Source: Methanoplanus limicola DSM 2279 (GTDB lineage: Archaea; Halobacteriota; Methanomicrobia; Methanomicrobiales; Methanomicrobiaceae). From it: 64,000 bases of DNA. Positions within the stretch are counted from its first letter, which is position 1. The number at the start of each line of letters is the position of its first letter. Positions 45,610 through 64,000 of this stretch are shown piece after piece. The translations under genes and the position numbers were made by a program. Under the pieces are notes generated by a model. That model saw only the letters and a program-made list of their open reading frames with translations. It was not told where the DNA came from and ran no database searches. The DNA lies in the NCBI RefSeq assembly GCF_000243255.1, contig NZ_CM001436.1, forward strand, positions 2,072,957-2,136,956, in the 5' to 3' direction.

Positions 45610-45812
45610 AAAAAGAACACTTTTTTTTAAATCATATATTTTATCTTCAGAATTCTGATTAACCGGAATCTAGATATACATTGACAATATATTCCTGATC
45701 ATCACAAATCAATATCACTGATGATAATTTATACCGGAAGGTATGCGGGATTATTTTTTTGGCTAAGCAGCCTGTAAATATCTCAGAAATTATTGATTAC
45801 GGGGTGATTACT

Positions 45813-48800
45813 GTGAAATCTGCCTGCCTTGCTATTTTAATTATACTCCTCTTCTGTGCTGCCGCATCGGGAACCCAGAGTGAAGAAGAGTATATCTCTC
45901 AGGAAATATCCGGGAATGTAACACTGAATAATTTATCCGGAAAAATACCTCCGCCTGCTGCCGTTCTTCCTGCGAATGCCAGTGAAAGAGGAGAGGAACC
46001 GGATGTATCAGCCAATACTTCAGCTCCTTTTAGGACGCCTCTTCCGGATCCGGCTGAAAAATATGAAAATGAGGGAGAGGAAGTGCCTCTGCATGAAGAA
46101 GCAATTCTCATCGTGAGCAGCAGCAATACAAAACCATCTCCGGATGATTCAGAAGGCCGCCCACTCTATGCTCCTGAGAGCATAATCGTCCGTTATGTCC
46201 CGGAAACTGCATCTGACATGGCAGTGATGGCAGATACTGCCAACAGCCTGAGTGCAGCTTACCATACAACCCTCAGTCACGACTTCTCAGAAGACGGAAT
46301 TTCCGGCATGCAGCTCATAAATCTCCCCGAAGATCTCACAGTTCAGGAGGCAGTGGTTGCATATGAAAGCAGCCCGTATGTCCTATATGCCGAACCGGAC
46401 TACTACTGCTATGAAGACAAACTGCCCAATGACCCTGATTTCTCACGTCTGTGGGGCCTGAAAAATACCGGCCAGACTGTCAACGGACAGGCAGGAACTT
46501 CCGGCGCTGACATCTCAGCTTCTGAAGCCTGGGATATAACAACAGGATCAAAGGACGTTATAATTGCCGTCATTGATTCCGGTGTTTACATGCACCACCT
46601 TGATCTCGTGGACAATATGTGGAGAAACCGGAATGAAACAGCGGACGGTAAGGATACTGACGGAAACGGCTATATTGACGATCTCTATGGCTGGGATTTT
46701 TATCAGAATGACAATGATCCCGATGACGTTGACGGGCACGGCACCCACTGTGCCGGAACAGTTGCCGGGGTGGGGAACAATGAACTCGGTGTTGCCGGGG
46801 TTATGTGGACAGCAGAGATAATGCCGCTGAGATTTATGGGACCTTATGGCACAGGGAAGACTTCAGACGCAATAAAAGCCATAAACTATGCGAAGAACAA
46901 CGGTGCCTGTATAATAAGCAACTCCTGGGGGTCGCCGTCATATTCGCAGGCATTAAAAGATGACATAGACTCTTTCGCCGGATCTGTGATATGCTCTGCG
47001 GGAAACAGTGCAGCAGACACCGATACTTCCCCGAATTATCCTGCCACTTACAACAGCACAAATATTATTGCCGTTGCATCAACCGACAACAGAAACAGCC
47101 TCTCATATTTCTCAAACTATGGCTCTGCAACTGTGGATGTTGCCGCACCCGGGACGGGGATTTACAGTACAGGAGTTTATTATGACAGAAAGGAGATCTT
47201 CAGTGACAATTTTACTGACTTCAGTAACTGGTATAATTACGGCGTGTGGAAACCAAATACTTCTGTTTATCTCACCTCACCATCCTCAGCATATGCCGGC
47301 CCTCCGGGAAATGACACGAAATCATGGCTCGCTATGGTAAATAACCTTACACTGTCGGATTATCAGCTCCCTGAACTTACATTCAGCTGCAATTATTCAA
47401 TAGTGAACGGAAACAACACCCTTAATGTTTACACATCCTGCCCGGACAAGAGTGCATTTAATTTTGCTTATCAGATACAGGGCACATCTGAAGGTGGCTG
47501 GAAGACGGTTACAATAAACAAGGACCAGATCTTTAGTTCATACCAGGCAAATGGTTATTCTGTCATTCCGGGAGAGATCCGCTTTGCTTTTATTTTTATA
47601 AGGGATAATACATCATCACCGGATTATGCCTTTGTTGACGATATCAAAGTGACCAATGTCGCAAAGATACTTCCGGATTACAAATCAATGAACGGCACCT
47701 CGATGGCAGCCCCTCATGTATCCGGGCTTGCCGGGCTTATCAAAGCATATAATTCCTCCCTTTCCACCTCACAGGTCAGGGAGATTATCACCTCAAACAC
47801 AGATCCCCTCACTTCGCTTTCAGGAAAATGTATGACAGGCGGAAGAATAAACGCCTCAAAGGCGCTTTTAGCTCTGCACCTTAAAGCCGGAATTGAGGCT
47901 AATGTTACATCCGGAGATGTGCCGCTCACAGTCGGTTTCACAGACAACTCAACCGGAATAAATTATACATCGCTCTGGTCGTTTGGCGACGAAAACATCT
48001 CCACAGAGATAAATCCGGTTTACACATACACGGCAAACGGCACATACACTGTCAATCTGACAATATCCAATAAATACGGGGGAAATATCTCATCCGAAAC
48101 CGGCCTGATTAAAGTCGGCTCAGGAACAGAACCAACTCCCACGCCGACTGCAACTCCGACTGTAACACCGACAGCAACGCCTACACCATCTCCAACCCCC
48201 ACGCCAAAACCGGGTGAATATCCGGCTGCAAACATTGTATATCTCGGAACAGATACAGCCTCTCTTCACTGGGAGAACAGCAGCCCGTTTAGGAATACTC
48301 CGGATTATGGAGGATATAATTTAGTACGTGGTGCAACAACCCTTGCAACCGGAACAGGACTGTCATTCACTGACAAAAATGTCCCCGGAGGGCCGGGTTC
48401 TGATTACAATTACTATACTTATGCACGAAACATCTCAGGAAAGCCGGTCCTGCTCTATGTAACTCCGGTAAGTTTTGGAGAACAGGTTTACGGAACTATG
48501 CAGACCGATGATACCTGGGATAAAGCCGGCGGGGAAGTGCAGCTTACAGCCAATCTGAATCCAAACGGGCACAGACTTGAGATAAAGAATACCCGTGTGT
48601 ATTCCCCGGAATTACACTCAAAAAGGATCCTCGGAGCTACCAGCCTCACCCTGGATAATGTTCAGTTCAGCTATGTATCTCTTGATTTAAGCCCGATTGA
48701 TGATGAACGGGCGCTGATAACCACCGGAAATGTCGTATCAGACAGTTCTATTGAGGTTGCTGACAGCAATCTGGGGATATCCAATATCACAACATCTTCC

Positions 48801-51590
48801 TCATTAGAACTAACAGGTGAGAACAATCAGGTGCATTCAGGCAAAGGCACGATTATTATCAGAGGAAATGACAGCCTGATAAATGAATGTGAAGGAGATC
48901 TCTTTGTCAACGGGGACCGTGCTTATGTCATCTCATTTTCCGGAATGGCTGATATAAAAGGAAACCAAACAGATGTAAAGGGGTGCACAGGTGAAGGAGC
49001 CGCAGCAATAACGGTTACAGGAAGAGATGCAGTCATTGAGGATAACATCCTTAGAAATATCGGCCACTCTCTATATGACGAAAGATACGGCATCTGGCTC
49101 AGGGAAGGATCAGGCGGAATAATCAGGAATAATACTATCATAAATGTAACCGCATGGGCAGGCTGGGGTGATGGTATCAGGATAGGGGAGGCAGACAAAT
49201 CTCCTCTTGAGAACATAACAGTATCCGGCAACCACATTGACGGAGTTGAAGGTGCCGGAATCGGCATCTTATCAGGCAGTGAACAACTCACTGTAAGCGG
49301 GAACTTAGTCCGGAATATTACTCTTTACGGCATTGACTTTGGCATGGGTTCATTGTATCCGGCAGACACCTCATTCTTTGAGATTAACAGAAATGAGATT
49401 CACAGTTCAAAAGATAATTCAGGGACATACGGTATGTATCTCTCCGGAAATAACGGCCATATCGAAGAGAATAACCTCTCAGGTTTCATCTGTGCACTTC
49501 GTCTTTCAGGTGACAGCTTTGAGGTTAAAAACAACAGCATCTCTGATATAAGAGGAGCAGGAGGTCTTTACGGTGCTGAAGCCGCTGTGGCTGTTTACGG
49601 CGATGAAAATGTAATCAGTGATAACAGGATCTCCGGATATACCGGTGTTGAGGACAGGGGGCTTCAGTACGGCATACGCCTTGACGGCAGTGACGGGAAT
49701 CTCTTAAACAATACTGTGAGCAATTACTTCTCCGGGCTTGATATAATCGGGAATAATCACAATGTCACCGGAAATACCTTAAACGGCATATCCGGAAGCA
49801 CCCTTAATCATCACGTGGTCAACTTTTCGGCTGAAAACTCGCTCTTTGAGGGCAATACAATCATAAACACAACCCAGAAGACCTGGGCAAGAGGAGTTGT
49901 TTATTCCACAAACTGCAGCGGGAACGTATTCTCGAAAAACCTGATTGATACGGGTGATAACGGGTTTTATATCACTAAGATCAAAAACGGGACAGTATTC
50001 AGTGAGAATATTTTAACAAACATCACTTCGTCAGGGATCTATGCAGGAGAAGTCTCAGGCGGGGACCCGGCTACATCTGCCGGCTATTCAGACATGCAGA
50101 TACTCAACAACACATTTGCAGGTATGAGTGCACAGGGTGGAAGCGGGGTCTATATCGACCGGATTTATGGCTCATCGATCGCCGGAAACAATATCACAGA
50201 CTGCTGTTACGGCATAGATATGTGGCCATATACAAAGGAGAGCATAATTTCGGATAACTTAATAATCAACGGTTCAGAGGGCATAAGGCTCAGGGGGACA
50301 GGTGATCTTGCCACCGGAAACACTATCCTGAATTATTCCGGAAAGGGGATTTACCTGTACAACCCGTCCAAAACCATCCTCAGGAACAATACAATTCTGC
50401 ATGGGATAGGCGGAAATCCGGCTGCAATATATGCTGAGACCTACACCGAAAATTCATACAGAATTGAGAGCAGCACAATCGGCGATATGGTGAACCTGAC
50501 AACCTTCTCTATTGAAGAGAGCAGCAACGGTCTTGTTATAAAGCCTGTCAAGGCTCCACCAGAGCCACCCAAATCACCGGAATATCCATACAGCCCTGTA
50601 TCTGTGGGCTGCCGGGCCGATATAAATACTTTTAACAGTTACAGGAGCAACCCTTTCAGCTTCAACCTTACCTTCCATTACGCCCCGGAATCATTAAAAG
50701 ACATTCCTGAGGAGAGTATTTCTGTCTGGAAATACAATGGCAGCCATTGGTACGGAGGCAATGAAACCCCTTCATGGAATGGTTCACGCTGGCTCAATAA
50801 AGCAGACCATGAGGTGGGCGTTACAGTAATCTCTCTTCCGGCTTATTCAGCAGAACCCGTAATATTTGCTCCTCTTGCTGAAACTCTAAAGGCCGACTTC
50901 TCCGCAGAACCAAGAGAAGGAACAGTGCCGGTGAGGGTTAGCTTTACGGACCTCTCAGCAGGCGACCCTGATAAATGGTCATGGTCGTTTGGTGACGGAG
51001 ATGTAAGCAGTGAGGAAGGTCCGGTTCATACATACACCATGGGAGGAGACTACACTGTAAGTCTTACAGTCTCAAAGGACGGCAGAAATAACACGGCAGT
51101 TAAGGAGAATTATATTACAGTTGAGAACCACCCTCCTGAACTCTCCGGAATAGCCCCGCTGTACGGTTACAGCAATGGGTCATTAATAAATGCCTTACTG
51201 AACGGGAGCGGGTTTATTGCAGGTGCTGAAGTAACCCTTACAAAGACCGGATTTCCGGATATGAAAGCCTCAAATGTAACTGTAATAACACCTTCAGTGA
51301 TAAACTGCACATTAGACCTTCATGGCGCTGAACCTGGTCAGTGGACTGTGAAGACTTCAAATTATGACGGAAAATCTGCATCATTAAAAGACGGATTTAT
51401 TGTCCGGCCACGTGGTGATTTCAACGGCAATGGATTTGTGGATATAGGTGATGTCTCAAAGGTTGCATATATGGTAGCAGGAAAAGAGCCTGAAGACCCT
51501 GAGGCTGACTTTTACGGGGACGGAAATGTCGATGTAGGCGATGCAGCAAGGATTGCATGGTACTTCACCGGAAAGTTGCCCGGTCTCTGA
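45813..51590 (+). CDS. Giant secreted subtilase with PKD, beta-helix and dockerin domains
   Basis: GTG 45813 is preferred to the TTG at 45759: GGGGTGAT lies just before it, and a clean signal peptide follows (SACLAILIILLFCAAASG). About 1,925 residues. A propeptide (YVPETASDMA...LYAEPDY) precedes a subtilisin domain with Asp (AVIDSG, codon 46575), His (GHGTHC, codon 46737) and Ser (GTSMAAPH, codon 47700). About 170 residues, strand-rich and beta-sandwich-like, are inserted just before the Ser region. Then come PKD 1, a Thr/Pro linker (48127-48220), about 750 residues of right-handed beta-helix (NosD-like), a shared archaeal surface module, PKD 2, an IPT-like domain and a C-terminal dockerin-like pair (DFNGNGFVDIGDV; DFYGDGNVDVGDA). 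Likely cell-surface or secreted protease. Confidence 0.92.
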   Translation: MKSACLAILIILLFCAAASGTQSEEEYISQEISGNVTLNNLSGKIPPPAAVLPANASERGEEPDVSANTSAPFRTPLPDPAEKYENEGEEVPLHEEAILIVSSSNTKPSPDDSEGRPLYAPESIIVRYVPETASDMAVMADTANSLSAAYHTTLSHDFSEDGISGMQLINLPEDLTVQEAVVAYESSPYVLYAEPDYYCYEDKLPNDPDFSRLWGLKNTGQTVNGQAGTSGADISASEAWDITTGSKDVIIAVIDSGVYMHHLDLVDNMWRNRNETADGKDTDGNGYIDDLYGWDFYQNDNDPDDVDGHGTHCAGTVAGVGNNELGVAGVMWTAEIMPLRFMGPYGTGKTSDAIKAINYAKNNGACIISNSWGSPSYSQALKDDIDSFAGSVICSAGNSAADTDTSPNYPATYNSTNIIAVASTDNRNSLSYFSNYGSATVDVAAPGTGIYSTGVYYDRKEIFSDNFTDFSNWYNYGVWKPNTSVYLTSPSSAYAGPPGNDTKSWLAMVNNLTLSDYQLPELTFSCNYSIVNGNNTLNVYTSCPDKSAFNFAYQIQGTSEGGWKTVTINKDQIFSSYQANGYSVIPGEIRFAFIFIRDNTSSPDYAFVDDIKVTNVAKILPDYKSMNGTSMAAPHVSGLAGLIKAYNSSLSTSQVREIITSNTDPLTSLSGKCMTGGRINASKALLALHLKAGIEANVTSGDVPLTVGFTDNSTGINYTSLWSFGDENISTEINPVYTYTANGTYTVNLTISNKYGGNISSETGLIKVGSGTEPTPTPTATPTVTPTATPTPSPTPTPKPGEYPAANIVYLGTDTASLHWENSSPFRNTPDYGGYNLVRGATTLATGTGLSFTDKNVPGGPGSDYNYYTYARNISGKPVLLYVTPVSFGEQVYGTMQTDDTWDKAGGEVQLTANLNPNGHRLEIKNTRVYSPELHSKRILGATSLTLDNVQFSYVSLDLSPIDDERALITTGNVVSDSSIEVADSNLGISNITTSSSLELTGENNQVHSGKGTIIIRGNDSLINECEGDLFVNGDRAYVISFSGMADIKGNQTDVKGCTGEGAAAITVTGRDAVIEDNILRNIGHSLYDERYGIWLREGSGGIIRNNTIINVTAWAGWGDGIRIGEADKSPLENITVSGNHIDGVEGAGIGILSGSEQLTVSGNLVRNITLYGIDFGMGSLYPADTSFFEINRNEIHSSKDNSGTYGMYLSGNNGHIEENNLSGFICALRLSGDSFEVKNNSISDIRGAGGLYGAEAAVAVYGDENVISDNRISGYTGVEDRGLQYGIRLDGSDGNLLNNTVSNYFSGLDIIGNNHNVTGNTLNGISGSTLNHHVVNFSAENSLFEGNTIINTTQKTWARGVVYSTNCSGNVFSKNLIDTGDNGFYITKIKNGTVFSENILTNITSSGIYAGEVSGGDPATSAGYSDMQILNNTFAGMSAQGGSGVYIDRIYGSSIAGNNITDCCYGIDMWPYTKESIISDNLIINGSEGIRLRGTGDLATGNTILNYSGKGIYLYNPSKTILRNNTILHGIGGNPAAIYAETYTENSYRIESSTIGDMVNLTTFSIEESSNGLVIKPVKAPPEPPKSPEYPYSPVSVGCRADINTFNSYRSNPFSFNLTFHYAPESLKDIPEESISVWKYNGSHWYGGNETPSWNGSRWLNKADHEVGVTVISLPAYSAEPVIFAPLAETLKADFSAEPREGTVPVRVSFTDLSAGDPDKWSWSFGDGDVSSEEGPVHTYTMGGDYTVSLTVSKDGRNNTAVKENYITVENHPPELSGIAPLYGYSNGSLINALLNGSGFIAGAEVTLTKTGFPDMKASNVTVITPSVINCTLDLHGAEPGQWTVKTSNYDGKSASLKDGFIVRPRGDFNGNGFVDIGDVSKVAYMVAGKEPEDPEADFYGDGNVDVGDAARIAWYFTGKLPGL

Positions 51591-59732: not shown

Positions 59733-59991
59733 TTAACTGAGGTATAAGCACTATTGCAGATAAATCATTTGTTTTTAACCGAAAAATTCGGCTATATAAT
59801 AATCACCGGAATAAACAATAAAAAATCACCGGACTGTCCCCCCTCTCAGAAATAATCAGAAGTAATTAATTTATATTATGATGTTCAATTACAGATCTAA
59901 AACGCCTGATATTTTGGGGATGTACGAATAGGTAATCTTTTTTTGAACTCATATTTTTCAGCCCCCAACAGGCTTAAATCTGGTGAAGGTT

Positions 59992-62900
59992 ATGAGAATT
60001 GGGGTATATTTAATTGTAATTTTATTATTTACAGCAGCATTTGCAGGAGCAGCATCCGCAATAGGTGTCATTTATGTCGGCTATGACAAGGCCGATATTT
60101 CATGGTCACAGTATGTTGGCGATGACTTTGGAAAATACAGGATTTATGCCGACTCATCGCCTGTTGCTACCATATATGAGCAGTCTGAGACAACCTGCCG
60201 TGCAGAAGGCCTGACAACGGACTGGGTGTACACTTTTGAGGTTGAGTCATATGATGACAAAGATAACCTGAAAAGTACTGATTCAAAAGATATTCACACA
60301 GGACAGGTGCAGGGAACTCTAAGACTTGGAGATGATAACTGGGACGGCATAGATGTCAATTTGACGGGCGACATTGATCTGTATGGCCACGAACTATATA
60401 TAAGAAATTCAAAGGTTTTTTCAGGGCCTACCGGAAATTCCATTTATTATCCGGAGATTATCAAGGGCCAGGGCGATCTGACAGTTATGGATTCTTCATT
60501 TACAAACGTCACATTTGATGTCACTCTGAATGACAGCTTCCTTTCCGGAATGTCAGCAAACCAGGATATAAAATTCCGCTGCAGTGAGAAGACATTTACA
60601 AATATCACATCAGAAGGGACATATAACAACAAACCGGTTTCACTCTGGGTAATCGGGGATTCAAACACATTCCATGACTGTGGAGGGTTCATAAAAGTCG
60701 AAGGTGACAACAACCGCCTGGAGGATAACAACTGTAAGATAATTCAGGTGAGCGGTGAATCTCCGGTTATAACCGGAAATACAGTCAGCAACTCAGATTA
60801 TGACGATTATTCAGGAATTTATACCGGAAATGGCAACAATTCTGTAATTACAAAGAATACCATCTCCGGAATAAAAGGAACCGGTATTGAGCTTTACACT
60901 GACAAAAATCCTCTGATAGTGGATAATGTGATAAGTGACTGCAGGGATCGCGGAATATATATCAGTTCACCTTACCTGGAAGAGATCATTAATCTAACCC
61001 TGATAAACAACACTGTCAGCCGGACAGGATTACAGGGTTTCTGGGGATGGGACCCCATAATGGGCGGAGAATTATCACACAACTCGTTCCTGAACACCGG
61101 AAATGTCGGCATTCAGGCAGACGGAATTGGACTTTTGGTTAATGAAAACCGTTTTTTTAACTGTAGTTATGCCGGTATGACTATTAATGCTGTCAGTTCG
61201 GAATTCAACGGAAATTATGCCGACGATTCAACAATGGGGATCTATGATAACGGCTGGTGGGGAACTGCCGGATATAACACAGTCAAAGATAATATAATCA
61301 CAAACGGTCCGGAGGGATATACCGCTCTTGATCTGGTATCAGACAACAGTACTGTCATTAATAATACAGTATCCTGGTGCGATTACGGTGCAGAGTGTGA
61401 GGGGTATAATATAACTGTCACTGATAATACTTTCATAAATAATGAAGTATACGGTCTGTCTCTCGACAGACTGAATATGAGCAATGTCTCTAAAAATGAG
61501 TTCATAAATAATTCCCGGAAGAACCCTGACGCATCAGTGCATCATACATACTGCAGCAATGTCACATTCTCTGACAACACAATTGACAAAGGGTACAGAG
61601 GAATTTATGTTGAATATTCCGGTAACGGAAACATAATTGAGAGAAATACAATCCTAAACACCACCGGTATTGCTGTAAGCAAATCCAAAGAAGGAGAATA
61701 TCCATTATACCGTGGACTGTCTGATCTTGTAATCCGGGATAATGACATTAAAGGGACTTTGGAAGCTGACAGAACAGGGATGAGTGTTGGTCTGGTTGAC
61801 GGGGTTACGGTCACTGATAATCAGATCAGCAGTATAGGGAAAGGAATTACTCTGCAAAACGTAAACAAAACCACAATCAGAAATAACAATATCACAAAAG
61901 CAACCGTATCCGGAATTCAGTTTAATTACCACTACTCTGAAGATTATGGAGGATGTTATCTCAATGAAATCTCCGGCAACTCGATTGAATCAAAGAATAC
62001 CGGAATTGAAATTTTTGCAAAGAATACAACCGTCACGTCCAATACTGTAACAGGATATACCCAGAGAGGAATATCACTCACAATGGGCGTGGGGACAAAC
62101 ATCAGCAGTAACATACTGAAGAAGAATACATCCTACAACCCATGGGACTTATACATCGAAACTGAAGAAGGTCTGTTCCAGGGCACCCTGACACTTGACT
62201 CCAATACCATAGGCGTTTCAAACCCGACAAACCTCACATTCTCCAATATCTCTGACAGGTTTGCGGTTATGAGCGTTGAAGATCCTCCCGAACCGCCCAA
62301 ACCTCCGGAATACAACACAACCAGGACCTCAATCGGAAAGTGGGCACAGGTGTACAACCTGAGCACTGAACTTGAACTTGACATAGAATTTCACTATACA
62401 GATGAGGATATTGAAGGCTATAACGAGAGTTCACTGTGGGTCTGGAAGCACAACGGAACAGTCTGGGATGAGGGGGCCACCGATGACTGGGAGAGCTGGG
62501 ACAAAAATCACTGGCTGGACACTGACAGGAATATTGTCGGGGTGAGCATATACCACTGCTGTATATTTGCACCGCTGACCGGAAAACCGGTGCACAACCC
62601 ACGTCTGGAGGCAGATTATATGACAATAAAAGAAGCCCTTGATGACTTTGACTTTAAAGACGGCGACACCATAACCGTCGATTCATCATATACCGGCACA
62701 AAGGAGAATATCAATATTTACAAAGAGGTAAAACTGAAGTCTTCATCCGGAAAAGCAGCCTCGGCAACCATTACAGCCGAAGACCCATATGAACCGGCAG
62801 TAAAGGTATATTCAGACAATGTTGAAATTGACGGTTTTGTTATCTCAGGGGCATCATCATCATACGGGTTAAGGATTGAAGGTTGTGAACTCGTTAAGGT

Positions 62901-64000
62901 CTCCAACTGTAAAATAACCGGAAACTCTGTCGGAGCCTCCCTGGCCAAATCAGAAATAGGAACCCCTGAAAAGTCTGAGTTCTGCACAATATCATACTCC
63001 GAATTCTCCGGAAATACAAACTGTGGTGTATATATCAACGATTCGGACGAGAACAATCTCTTAGACTGTGAGATTAAAGATCCCGTCGGCGTTGCTATTG
63101 AAAACAGTATATCAAGCCTGGTTTCCGACTGTACCTTCTCCGGAAATTCAGAATATGGTATTGTTGTTCAGCATGGCGGTTCTGTAAACGAAATTATGTC
63201 GTGTGAGTTCACAGACCAGGAGAACGGCATCTATATCGCCGGCACTGATCAGAACACCTTTACAGGATTAACCTTCAAAAACACGGCAGACACAGTAATT
63301 GCTGCCGATGATTCGGACAGGAATACATTTTCAGAGATATCTTCAGATTCATTTGCCCGGGGATTATATCTTAAGGATTCAAACCTGAACAGTTTTACAG
63401 ACTGTGAATTCAAAGGAAATTATGACGGTTTTGTCACAGGGTACGAAATCTATGCATCAGAGAGCAACAAAATAGAAGACTGTAATATTCATGATATTGC
63501 GTCCGTAGGATATTCCATTGACGGTATTAAGATCTACGGTGATTCAGACAGTAATTTAATATCAAACACAAGTATTTCCGGTTTTGAATCCTCAAAATGT
63601 ACAGGCATAACACTTACATCAGGAAGTGGCAATACAATAGAAAATGTAACTGTATCCGGTCTGAGTGCTGCATATGACGGTGCATACGGACTGAAGCTCA
63701 CATCCGGACCAAATACTGTTAAAAATTCCGGATTTTCAGGCATTTATGCCACAAACAATTCATATGGCTGGATACTGGGAGGGGACTATGGCAATACCCT
63801 GAAAAATTCATACCTCAACGGTGTAACGTCTCCGAATAGCTCGGCCGGAATTTCGGCTGAGAACTTCGGTTACACAAACAGCCTCTCAGGGATTACATTT
63901 GCCGGAGATAATGCCACAACATTTTCAATGAAAGGAAAGGGCAATATGACATTCGGGTGGGTACTGACCCCGCCGCCTGACGGTGATGACCTGATAAATA
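59992..64000 (+). CDS. Giant beta-helix surface protein, N-terminal 1,336 residues (runs off the edge)
   Basis: The frame is open from ATG 59992 to the window end. GGTGAAGG lies just before the ATG. A signal peptide (RIGVYLIVILLFTAAFAGAA) precedes a short strand-rich module, then a long right-handed beta-helix region of NosD/PbH1 repeats with N-rich turns (about residues 140-750). A cassette like that of the subtilase protein (HYTDEDIEGYNESSLWVWKH, about 800-850) follows, then a second beta-helix (about 870 onward). It has no protease domain in the visible part. Most likely it is anchored at, or exported to, the cell surface, possibly for polysaccharide or cell contact (inference). C-terminal anchor not visible. 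Confidence 0.9.
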   Translation, partial: MRIGVYLIVILLFTAAFAGAASAIGVIYVGYDKADISWSQYVGDDFGKYRIYADSSPVATIYEQSETTCRAEGLTTDWVYTFEVESYDDKDNLKSTDSKDIHTGQVQGTLRLGDDNWDGIDVNLTGDIDLYGHELYIRNSKVFSGPTGNSIYYPEIIKGQGDLTVMDSSFTNVTFDVTLNDSFLSGMSANQDIKFRCSEKTFTNITSEGTYNNKPVSLWVIGDSNTFHDCGGFIKVEGDNNRLEDNNCKIIQVSGESPVITGNTVSNSDYDDYSGIYTGNGNNSVITKNTISGIKGTGIELYTDKNPLIVDNVISDCRDRGIYISSPYLEEIINLTLINNTVSRTGLQGFWGWDPIMGGELSHNSFLNTGNVGIQADGIGLLVNENRFFNCSYAGMTINAVSSEFNGNYADDSTMGIYDNGWWGTAGYNTVKDNIITNGPEGYTALDLVSDNSTVINNTVSWCDYGAECEGYNITVTDNTFINNEVYGLSLDRLNMSNVSKNEFINNSRKNPDASVHHTYCSNVTFSDNTIDKGYRGIYVEYSGNGNIIERNTILNTTGIAVSKSKEGEYPLYRGLSDLVIRDNDIKGTLEADRTGMSVGLVDGVTVTDNQISSIGKGITLQNVNKTTIRNNNITKATVSGIQFNYHYSEDYGGCYLNEISGNSIESKNTGIEIFAKNTTVTSNTVTGYTQRGISLTMGVGTNISSNILKKNTSYNPWDLYIETEEGLFQGTLTLDSNTIGVSNPTNLTFSNISDRFAVMSVEDPPEPPKPPEYNTTRTSIGKWAQVYNLSTELELDIEFHYTDEDIEGYNESSLWVWKHNGTVWDEGATDDWESWDKNHWLDTDRNIVGVSIYHCCIFAPLTGKPVHNPRLEADYMTIKEALDDFDFKDGDTITVDSSYTGTKENINIYKEVKLKSSSGKAASATITAEDPYEPAVKVYSDNVEIDGFVISGASSSYGLRIEGCELVKVSNCKITGNSVGASLAKSEIGTPEKSEFCTISYSEFSGNTNCGVYINDSDENNLLDCEIKDPVGVAIENSISSLVSDCTFSGNSEYGIVVQHGGSVNEIMSCEFTDQENGIYIAGTDQNTFTGLTFKNTADTVIAADDSDRNTFSEISSDSFARGLYLKDSNLNSFTDCEFKGNYDGFVTGYEIYASESNKIEDCNIHDIASVGYSIDGIKIYGDSDSNLISNTSISGFESSKCTGITLTSGSGNTIENVTVSGLSAAYDGAYGLKLTSGPNTVKNSGFSGIYATNNSYGWILGGDYGNTLKNSYLNGVTSPNSSAGISAENFGYTNSLSGITFAGDNATTFSMKGKGNMTFGWVLTPPPDGDDLIN

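Follow-up and report, generated by a model that had tools for sequence, protein, structure and literature searches.

A subtilase of Methanoplanus limicola as a probable surface-docked client of a non-cellulosomal cohesin-dockerin assembly

Docking through dockerins is best known from plant-digesting bacteria. What, then, would a dockerin do at the end of a protease from a methanogen? Such a protein is encoded in the window analysed here, that is, the whole 64,000-nt stretch of Methanoplanus limicola DSM 2279 (GCF_000243255.1, NZ_CM001436.1; genome G000 below). The host is a methanogen, as an earlier note on this DNA had it: McrA is encoded in the genome. Archaea are known to have cohesins and dockerins that belong to no cellulosome, and the relevant passages of two papers assign them no clear job (PMC9012536, PMC5244752). 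The protease lies in a single uninterrupted ORF at 45759-51590 on the plus strand (ORF listing). Read from the TTG at 45759, this frame has 1943 residues; the likely start codon is the GTG at 45813, which gives a product of 1925 residues beginning with MKSACLAILIILLFCAAASG. All residue numbers refer to the TTG frame, not to the GTG frame. The earlier note had read the ORF as a subtilase with a beta-helix, two PKD domains and a dockerin, and Pfam matches and motif positions confirm this. The domain order is prodomain, S8 domain with an insert, PKD, beta-helix, PKD, weak TIG and dockerin (Pfam and alignment). The features of the window are as follows.

45813-51590, plus strand: full-length coding region for the subtilase with the dockerin, 1925 aa when read from the GTG, with the frame open from TTG 45759
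45813-45872, plus strand: signal-peptide-like N-terminus MKSACLAILIILLFCAAASG, judged from the sequence without a signal-peptide program
46143-46400, plus strand: prodomain, Fervidolysin_NPro-like, residues 129-214 (Pfam, E = 3.6e-5)
46551-47180, plus strand: first part of the S8 domain with Asp273, His327 and Asn416 (Pfam and motif positions)
47181-47684, plus strand: probable MAM-like beta-sandwich insert ahead of the catalytic Ser (homologue alignment, profile comparisons)
47685-47879, plus strand: last part of the S8 domain with catalytic Ser648, codon 47700-47702 (Pfam and motif)
47880-48128, plus strand: first PKD, approximate limits (Pfam)
48135-48236, plus strand: Thr/Pro-rich linker (sequence)
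48783-50558, plus strand: right-handed beta-helix, approximate limits (Beta_helix and NosD in Pfam; TIGR03804)
50559-50858, plus strand: post-helix module without a Pfam match, also present in related beta-helix proteins
50871-51122, plus strand: second PKD, residues 1705-1788 (Pfam)
51135-51377, plus strand: IPT/TIG-like domain, weak (E = 0.029, under the Pfam cut-off), conserved among homologues
51411-51587, plus strand: C-terminal dockerin, Pfam residues 1886-1933, loop 2 Tyr codon at 51513-51515
59983-64000, plus strand: second dockerin protein (beta-helix); PKD and dockerin lie past the window end, the dockerin at G000:C1:2137442-2137618

Across the whole chain, Pfam matches were obtained to Peptidase_S8 (E = 1.3e-50), PKD_4 (3e-29, in two stretches, agreeing with the two PKD domains reported before), Beta_helix (2.7e-27, in four stretches), NosD (3.5e-17), the Fervidolysin-type prodomain (3.6e-5) and Dockerin_1 (0.0015). 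The beta-helix had been put at about 750 residues; the helix itself holds, but not this length, since the Pfam-supported stretches cover residues ~1009-1574, or ~570-600 residues. The TIG-like domain, which a Pfam scan of the C-terminal piece places after the second PKD and ahead of the dockerin, is absent from the earlier note.

The S8 domain begins at residue 265 and its triad is complete, as the note had claimed: D273, H327 and S648, which we take to be the catalytic residues from knowledge of subtilisins, fall within the PF00082 match (1.3e-50) and are accompanied by Asn416. Judged from its sequence, the protein is a putatively secreted, prodomain-bearing (zymogen-type) subtilisin-like protease with predicted activity. 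The domain said to be inserted before the catalytic Ser was located at residues ~475-642 (~165 residues), and homologues occupy the same site in six other aligned proteins, from G001, G022 (two proteins), G029, G007 and G011; in the alignment it is missing from the 754-aa dockerin subtilase of G000 and from the G001 counterpart of the latter. By itself, the insert of the window protein has no family-profile match in Pfam. Two of the six homologous inserts match PF20773 (best 1e-6), and the insert of a further homologue, in G106, reaches 6.2e-4 with the same family, under the cut-off. Moreover, a profile of the six inserts (A4) matches the immune inhibitor A structure 4yu5 with E = 0.0064, in a stretch that is presumably the MAM region of InhA. 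From the 4yu5 match and the PF20773 matches in homologues, we assign the insert a probable beta-sandwich fold like that of the MAM domain of immune inhibitor A. AF2 models from the window sequence alone had pLDDT values of 34 (catalytic domain with insert) and 28 (TIG-dockerin), and both were discarded.

The dockerin consists of two F-hand repeats with a family profile match (PF00404); on the C-terminal piece alone, Dockerin_1 gives E = 7.7e-5 and 23.2 bits, versus a cut-off of 22.9. Loop 1 (DFNGNGFVDIGD) is complete, and all five of its ligand positions are filled in 16/16 aligned dockerins of G000. Loop 2 (DFYGDGNVDVGD) has Tyr (codon TAC) at ligand position 3, where the 15 other aligned dockerins have Asn. 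The only other deviation among the 16 is found in dockerin 1565382, with Glu replacing Asp at position 9 of loop 2. Thus, the pair of Asp/Asn calcium loops that had been proposed stands for loop 1, but loop 2 has lost one ligand. The G001 orthologue keeps Asn at this position, and loop 2 is further degenerated in both G022 homologues of the window protein. Erosion of loop 2 would suit a free secreted scavenging protease, whose dockerin-like tail is just a terminal piece stabilised by calcium, or was left behind by domain shuffling. We regard this as unlikely: the 16 aligned dockerins have a mean identity per column of 74%, at the ends of otherwise unrelated proteins.

A profile built from these 16 dockerins (A1) finds solved dockerins, cellulosomal 2y3n among them. 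When G000 was searched with A1, 18 dockerins were recovered with E <= 1.7e-28, 16 of which are seeds of the profile; the next matches are a half copy (4.7e-4) and the dockerin of the scaffold described below (0.227). The 18 class members are what remains of 20 dockerin matches listed for the genome after removal of the scaffold's own dockerin and of match 2030905, which was rejected as a chance match (E = 0.95, in an ATPase-like frame). Within the window, the subtilase ORF is the sole match to A1, at 108.7 bits, versus a maximum of 1.2 bits in shuffled proteins (n = 534). In the same shuffle control, the listed dockerin, cohesin, S8 and TED matches were all <= 5.4 bits; with these four profiles, no sequence of the window other than the subtilase itself exceeded 5 bits. 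Repeats 1 and 2 agree at 11 of 23 positions in a class dockerin, versus 5 of 23 in the scaffold's dockerin. Given what is generally known of cellulosomal dockerins, this pattern would fit a type I-like dockerin that binds symmetrically, and a scaffold with a specificity of its own, the binding being predicted by analogy.

Which proteins carry this class of dockerin? Of the 18 dockerins, 14 close uninterrupted frames and three are orphan fragments of 56-60 aa (G000:C1:1123852, 2196629 and 2650457); the remaining one is preceded by a 100-N gap. The orphan fragments (3/18) are apparently remnants of lost client genes, and they count in favour of the free protease. They were left out of the client count of 14, as was the gap-adjoining dockerin; client frame 2000836, which appears short at its start in comparison with its paralogue 594584, was still counted. 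G000 has two S8 genes at E <= 1e-10, both dockerin-bearing. Other clients are a papain-like C1 protease with a lectin-like domain, a chain with three DUF4430 repeats, an NHL propeller, a DUF3344/CARDB protein and the beta-helix protein beginning at window position 59983. The latter combines a beta-helix, a PKD and a dockerin and ends at G000:C1:2137621; its dockerin was invisible to the earlier note because it sits just beyond the window end. Two more clients are GH18-like by eye only, Pfam having matched solely their dockerin. Neither cellulases nor a cellulose-binding module were matched in the dockerin and cohesin proteins scanned with Pfam. A 72-kb stretch (G000:C1:2124367-2196629) contains six of the 18 class dockerins, a density reached by 12 of 20000 random placements; duplicates may explain this clustering.

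The reading of a docked protease was to be checked by a genome search for cohesins, and a genome without them, along with loops devoid of ligands, was named as the contrary outcome. Cohesins were found: Pfam gives three matches in G000 and a lineage cohesin profile (A3) gives 15, four of which are its own seeds; loop 1 of the dockerin is intact, as described above. The best match of A3 to a solved structure is 2xdh (E = 4.6e-18), presumably an Archaeoglobus fulgidus cohesin. The main cohesin locus lies on the minus strand at G000:C1 ~215.3-223.9 kb and encodes four proteins of interest.

G000:C1:223081-223923, minus strand: 280-aa anchor candidate with signal peptide, cohesin, linker and hydrophobic tail; no dockerin
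Main locus, minus strand, adjoining the 280-aa protein: 920-aa scaffold with several cohesins, CARDB and a divergent dockerin
G000:C1:216073-219873 (L037 4074-7874), minus strand: 1267-aa protein with cohesin, TED and dockerin
Main locus, minus strand: 248-aa protein with a hydrophobic tail

The cohesin genes show signal-peptide-like starts and hydrophobic C-terminal tails (sequence). The tail of the 280-aa protein scores 15.1 bits against PGF-CTERM, below the cut-off of 24.5, and G000 has two archaeosortase A genes. Two further cohesins are found in a 3701-aa PEGA/PKD protein with a hydrophobic C-terminal stretch; the cohesin of this protein was missed by the whole-chain Pfam scan and matched when the piece was scanned alone. 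The 1267-aa protein matches PF07678 (TED) with E = 1.1e-6, over the cut-off, and has the thioester motif GCVEQ. The window subtilase itself is outside any cohesin operon, the anchor gene lying ~1.9 Mb along the contig, or ~1.3 Mb away by the shorter route if the contig is circular.

Cohesins also stand directly ahead of the dockerin in eight aligned proteins (seven from G000, one from G001), this domain (A2) matching A3 with an hhalign probability of 98.7 and E = 3.7e-16. Chains of clients are thus possible. Dockerin proteins could also join head to tail through their pre-dockerin cohesins, or a dockerin could fold onto its own chain, with no need for a separate anchor. For the window protein this is quite improbable: anchored cohesins without a dockerin exist, and a TIG-like domain, not a cohesin, stands before its dockerin, so that it cannot cap itself through a pre-dockerin cohesin. 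Elsewhere in the genome (L050, G000:C1 ~406.5-408.5 kb), 100 N separate a protein with two cohesin-like domains from a dockerin end; near-identical repeats flank this run on both sides, and it represents a gap in the assembly of the single contig.

Related genomes link proteases to cohesins more directly. Across the order (150 genomes), a TED-cohesin protein was detected in 23; with G001, which was added separately and in which TED is fused to the scaffold, this makes 24 TED-cohesin loci. Three weaker relatives of the TED protein are found beyond the order (G277, G342 and G354). S8 is encoded in 21/24 loci versus 0.37 expected if the 47 S8 genes of the 24 genomes were placed randomly, the loci being homologous and thus not independent trials. 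Fifteen loci contain an S8-cohesin-dockerin fusion incorporating the scaffold's end (the last ~440 residues are 48-57% identical to the 920-aa scaffold of G000 in the three compared), five encode an S8 protein with a dockerin of the window class (G020, G022, G047, G091 and G106) and one (G085) another S8-dockerin protein; the loci without S8 are those of G000, G001 and G050. The window protein has a homologue in G106, encoded by the sole S8 gene of that genome. The two share prodomain, insert, PKD and class of dockerin, with 41% identity across 724 aa of prodomain, S8 domain and insert and 61% in the dockerin; immediately downstream of the G106 gene come an anchored cohesin and then a cohesin-CARDB-TED-dockerin scaffold. 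Genomic evidence of three sorts ties a protease to cohesins: fusion in relatives, gene neighbourhood and a dockerin class tracking one anchor type (see below). This linkage of S8 to cohesin loci argues against a free protease.

The company of the TED protein raises the prospect of a conflict or defence device, in which the docked subtilase would activate or feed the cohesin-borne thioester trap. This proposal is compatible with surface docking, and several observations speak for it: GC.EQ is present in 7/7 TED proteins of the seven loci examined, S8 is in 21/24 TED loci, and passages of PMC8416519 describe TED with CxEQ in archaea, including Methanomicrobia, with endoproteases in some of the neighbourhoods. 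The word "cohesin" is absent from that paper, whereas the TED chain of G000 itself bears a cohesin and a dockerin. However, bait region and target are not known, the protease genes of G000 lie outside the TED locus and nutrition fits equally well, which leaves a defence role doubtful.

Relatives of the 280-aa anchor (E <= 1.6e-14) are present in 8/24 loci (G000, G001, G020, G022, G047, G050, G091 and G106); weaker matches (E at least 5.9e-5), in G069, G074, G084 and a second small protein each in G000 and G091, were treated as other anchors. Dockerins with at least 70 bits to A1 were assigned to the window class (class W), and the search covered the whole genome in G000, and loci plus sampled places in the other genomes. 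Class W is found inside the TED-cohesin loci of six of the eight anchor genomes, outside the locus in G000, and is present in G001 (sequence). No dockerin in the other 16 loci exceeds 18 bits to A1, and 26 further dockerin places in 13 of the 16 anchor-less genomes reach at most 45.3 bits; in G005, G069 and G109 coverage was that of the locus. Of seven further places from anchor genomes, G022 and G047 supply the four that belong to class W, and G050 and G106 the three of other classes; the sample also took in seven places from genomes outside the 24. As sampled, class W is present in exactly the eight anchor genomes and in 0/16 others (Fisher p = 1.4e-6, descent ignored), a co-occurrence that again counts against the free protease. 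Co-inheritance is a partial explanation, because six of the eight genomes hold dockerin and anchor in one locus. G000 retains both despite the distance between them, and genus g12 is split into three genomes with anchor and class W and four with neither.

In the order as a whole (150 genomes), Pfam finds cohesin in 39 and dockerin in 75 genomes: 34 have both, five cohesin only, 41 dockerin only and 70 neither (Fisher p = 6e-8). These counts are lower bounds, G000 having scored 8 dockerins versus 18 by A1. All genomes with at least five dockerin matches also have cohesin (17/17). The general rule that a dockerin always comes with a cohesin in the same genome was rejected, since 41/75 dockerin genomes are without a Pfam-detectable one. 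Indeed, a related dockerin-like class with 37-49 bits to A1 is found in G040, G093, G099 and G135, in which cohesin was not detected. A tail of dockerin type is therefore no proof of docking, and such tails are a point for the free protease. In these genomes (L199-L202, L205) the C-terminus RGDLNGDG.VDW.DV is carried by ~730-915-aa proteins. G075 and G118, from family f5 of the same order, have 32 and 29 dockerin matches and only two and one Pfam cohesins, respectively; the single place examined in each showed another class of dockerin.

How does this set compare with known systems? For ANME archaea, Chadwick et al. (2022; PMC9012536) describe proteins resembling scaffolds, in which a dockerin is combined with several cohesins, as in G000, and the Archaeoglobus fulgidus and ANME systems, as far as outlined there, likewise have secreted cohesin and dockerin proteins without cellulases. 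ABC-transporter binding proteins are given there as common among ANME dockerin proteins, whereas those of G000 include proteases and beta-helix proteins. A cohesin locus that encodes S8 or has it fused in, and that includes a thioester protein, sets the present system apart from those of A. fulgidus and ANME. By analogy, the set would resemble a bacterial cellulosome in its many near-identical enzyme dockerins, its multi-cohesin scaffold with a divergent dockerin and its small anchored cohesin, but the tail of the G000 anchor is C-terminal, hydrophobic and putatively of sorting type, not SLH. The 2008 serine-protease survey (PMC2605481) lists, in the part concerned, Subt-(Dockerin_1)2 in Halobacterium and Sub_N-Subt-PA-Dockerin, together with a Subt-NosD architecture; a cohesin partner, a MAM-like insert or locus linkage are not described in that part. 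A literature search, with subscription papers outside its reach, found no paper reporting an archaeal subtilase docked to cohesin, nor one on a cohesin-borne alpha-2-macroglobulin.

In our view, the protease is probably a surface-docked client of a non-cellulosomal cohesin-dockerin assembly, with the binding predicted from sequence. The cohesins of G000, the tailed 280-aa cohesin and the protease-cohesin locus shared by relatives support the surface cohesin partner envisaged in the earlier note. Since the genome encodes matching, putatively surface-anchored cohesins, the protease is probably mounted on an outer scaffold with other enzymes. The subtilase would be exported and then lose its prodomain, and its C-terminal dockerin would hold it outside the cell by binding a cohesin, most likely that of the 280-aa anchor or those of the neighbouring 920-aa scaffold. 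The divergent dockerin of the scaffold may have another cohesin as its partner, so that the assembly would be built in layers, and the beta-helix, PKD, TIG and MAM-like modules may serve as spacers or as substrate- or surface-binding parts. Most related genomes with the locus have the subtilase fused to the scaffold. In the window's genus, the scaffold is without a protease and both S8 genes of G000 are dockerin-bearing, suggesting that docking replaces fusion there. The alpha-2-macroglobulin-type thioester protein, with its cohesin and dockerin, is part of the same locus. A more tentative extension is a plug-in, complement-like device, in which subtilase and thioester protein are joined by cohesin-dockerin pairs on a membrane-anchored cohesin, the protease being fused in most relatives and docked in the window's genus through the anchor-matched dockerin class; we consider it possible, with the balance somewhat against it.

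These results give such archaeal assemblies a candidate role in methanogens, namely, surface proteolysis. A named dockerin-anchor pair is now available for bench testing, and the locus shared with the thioester protein makes a possible archaeal complement-like system testable.
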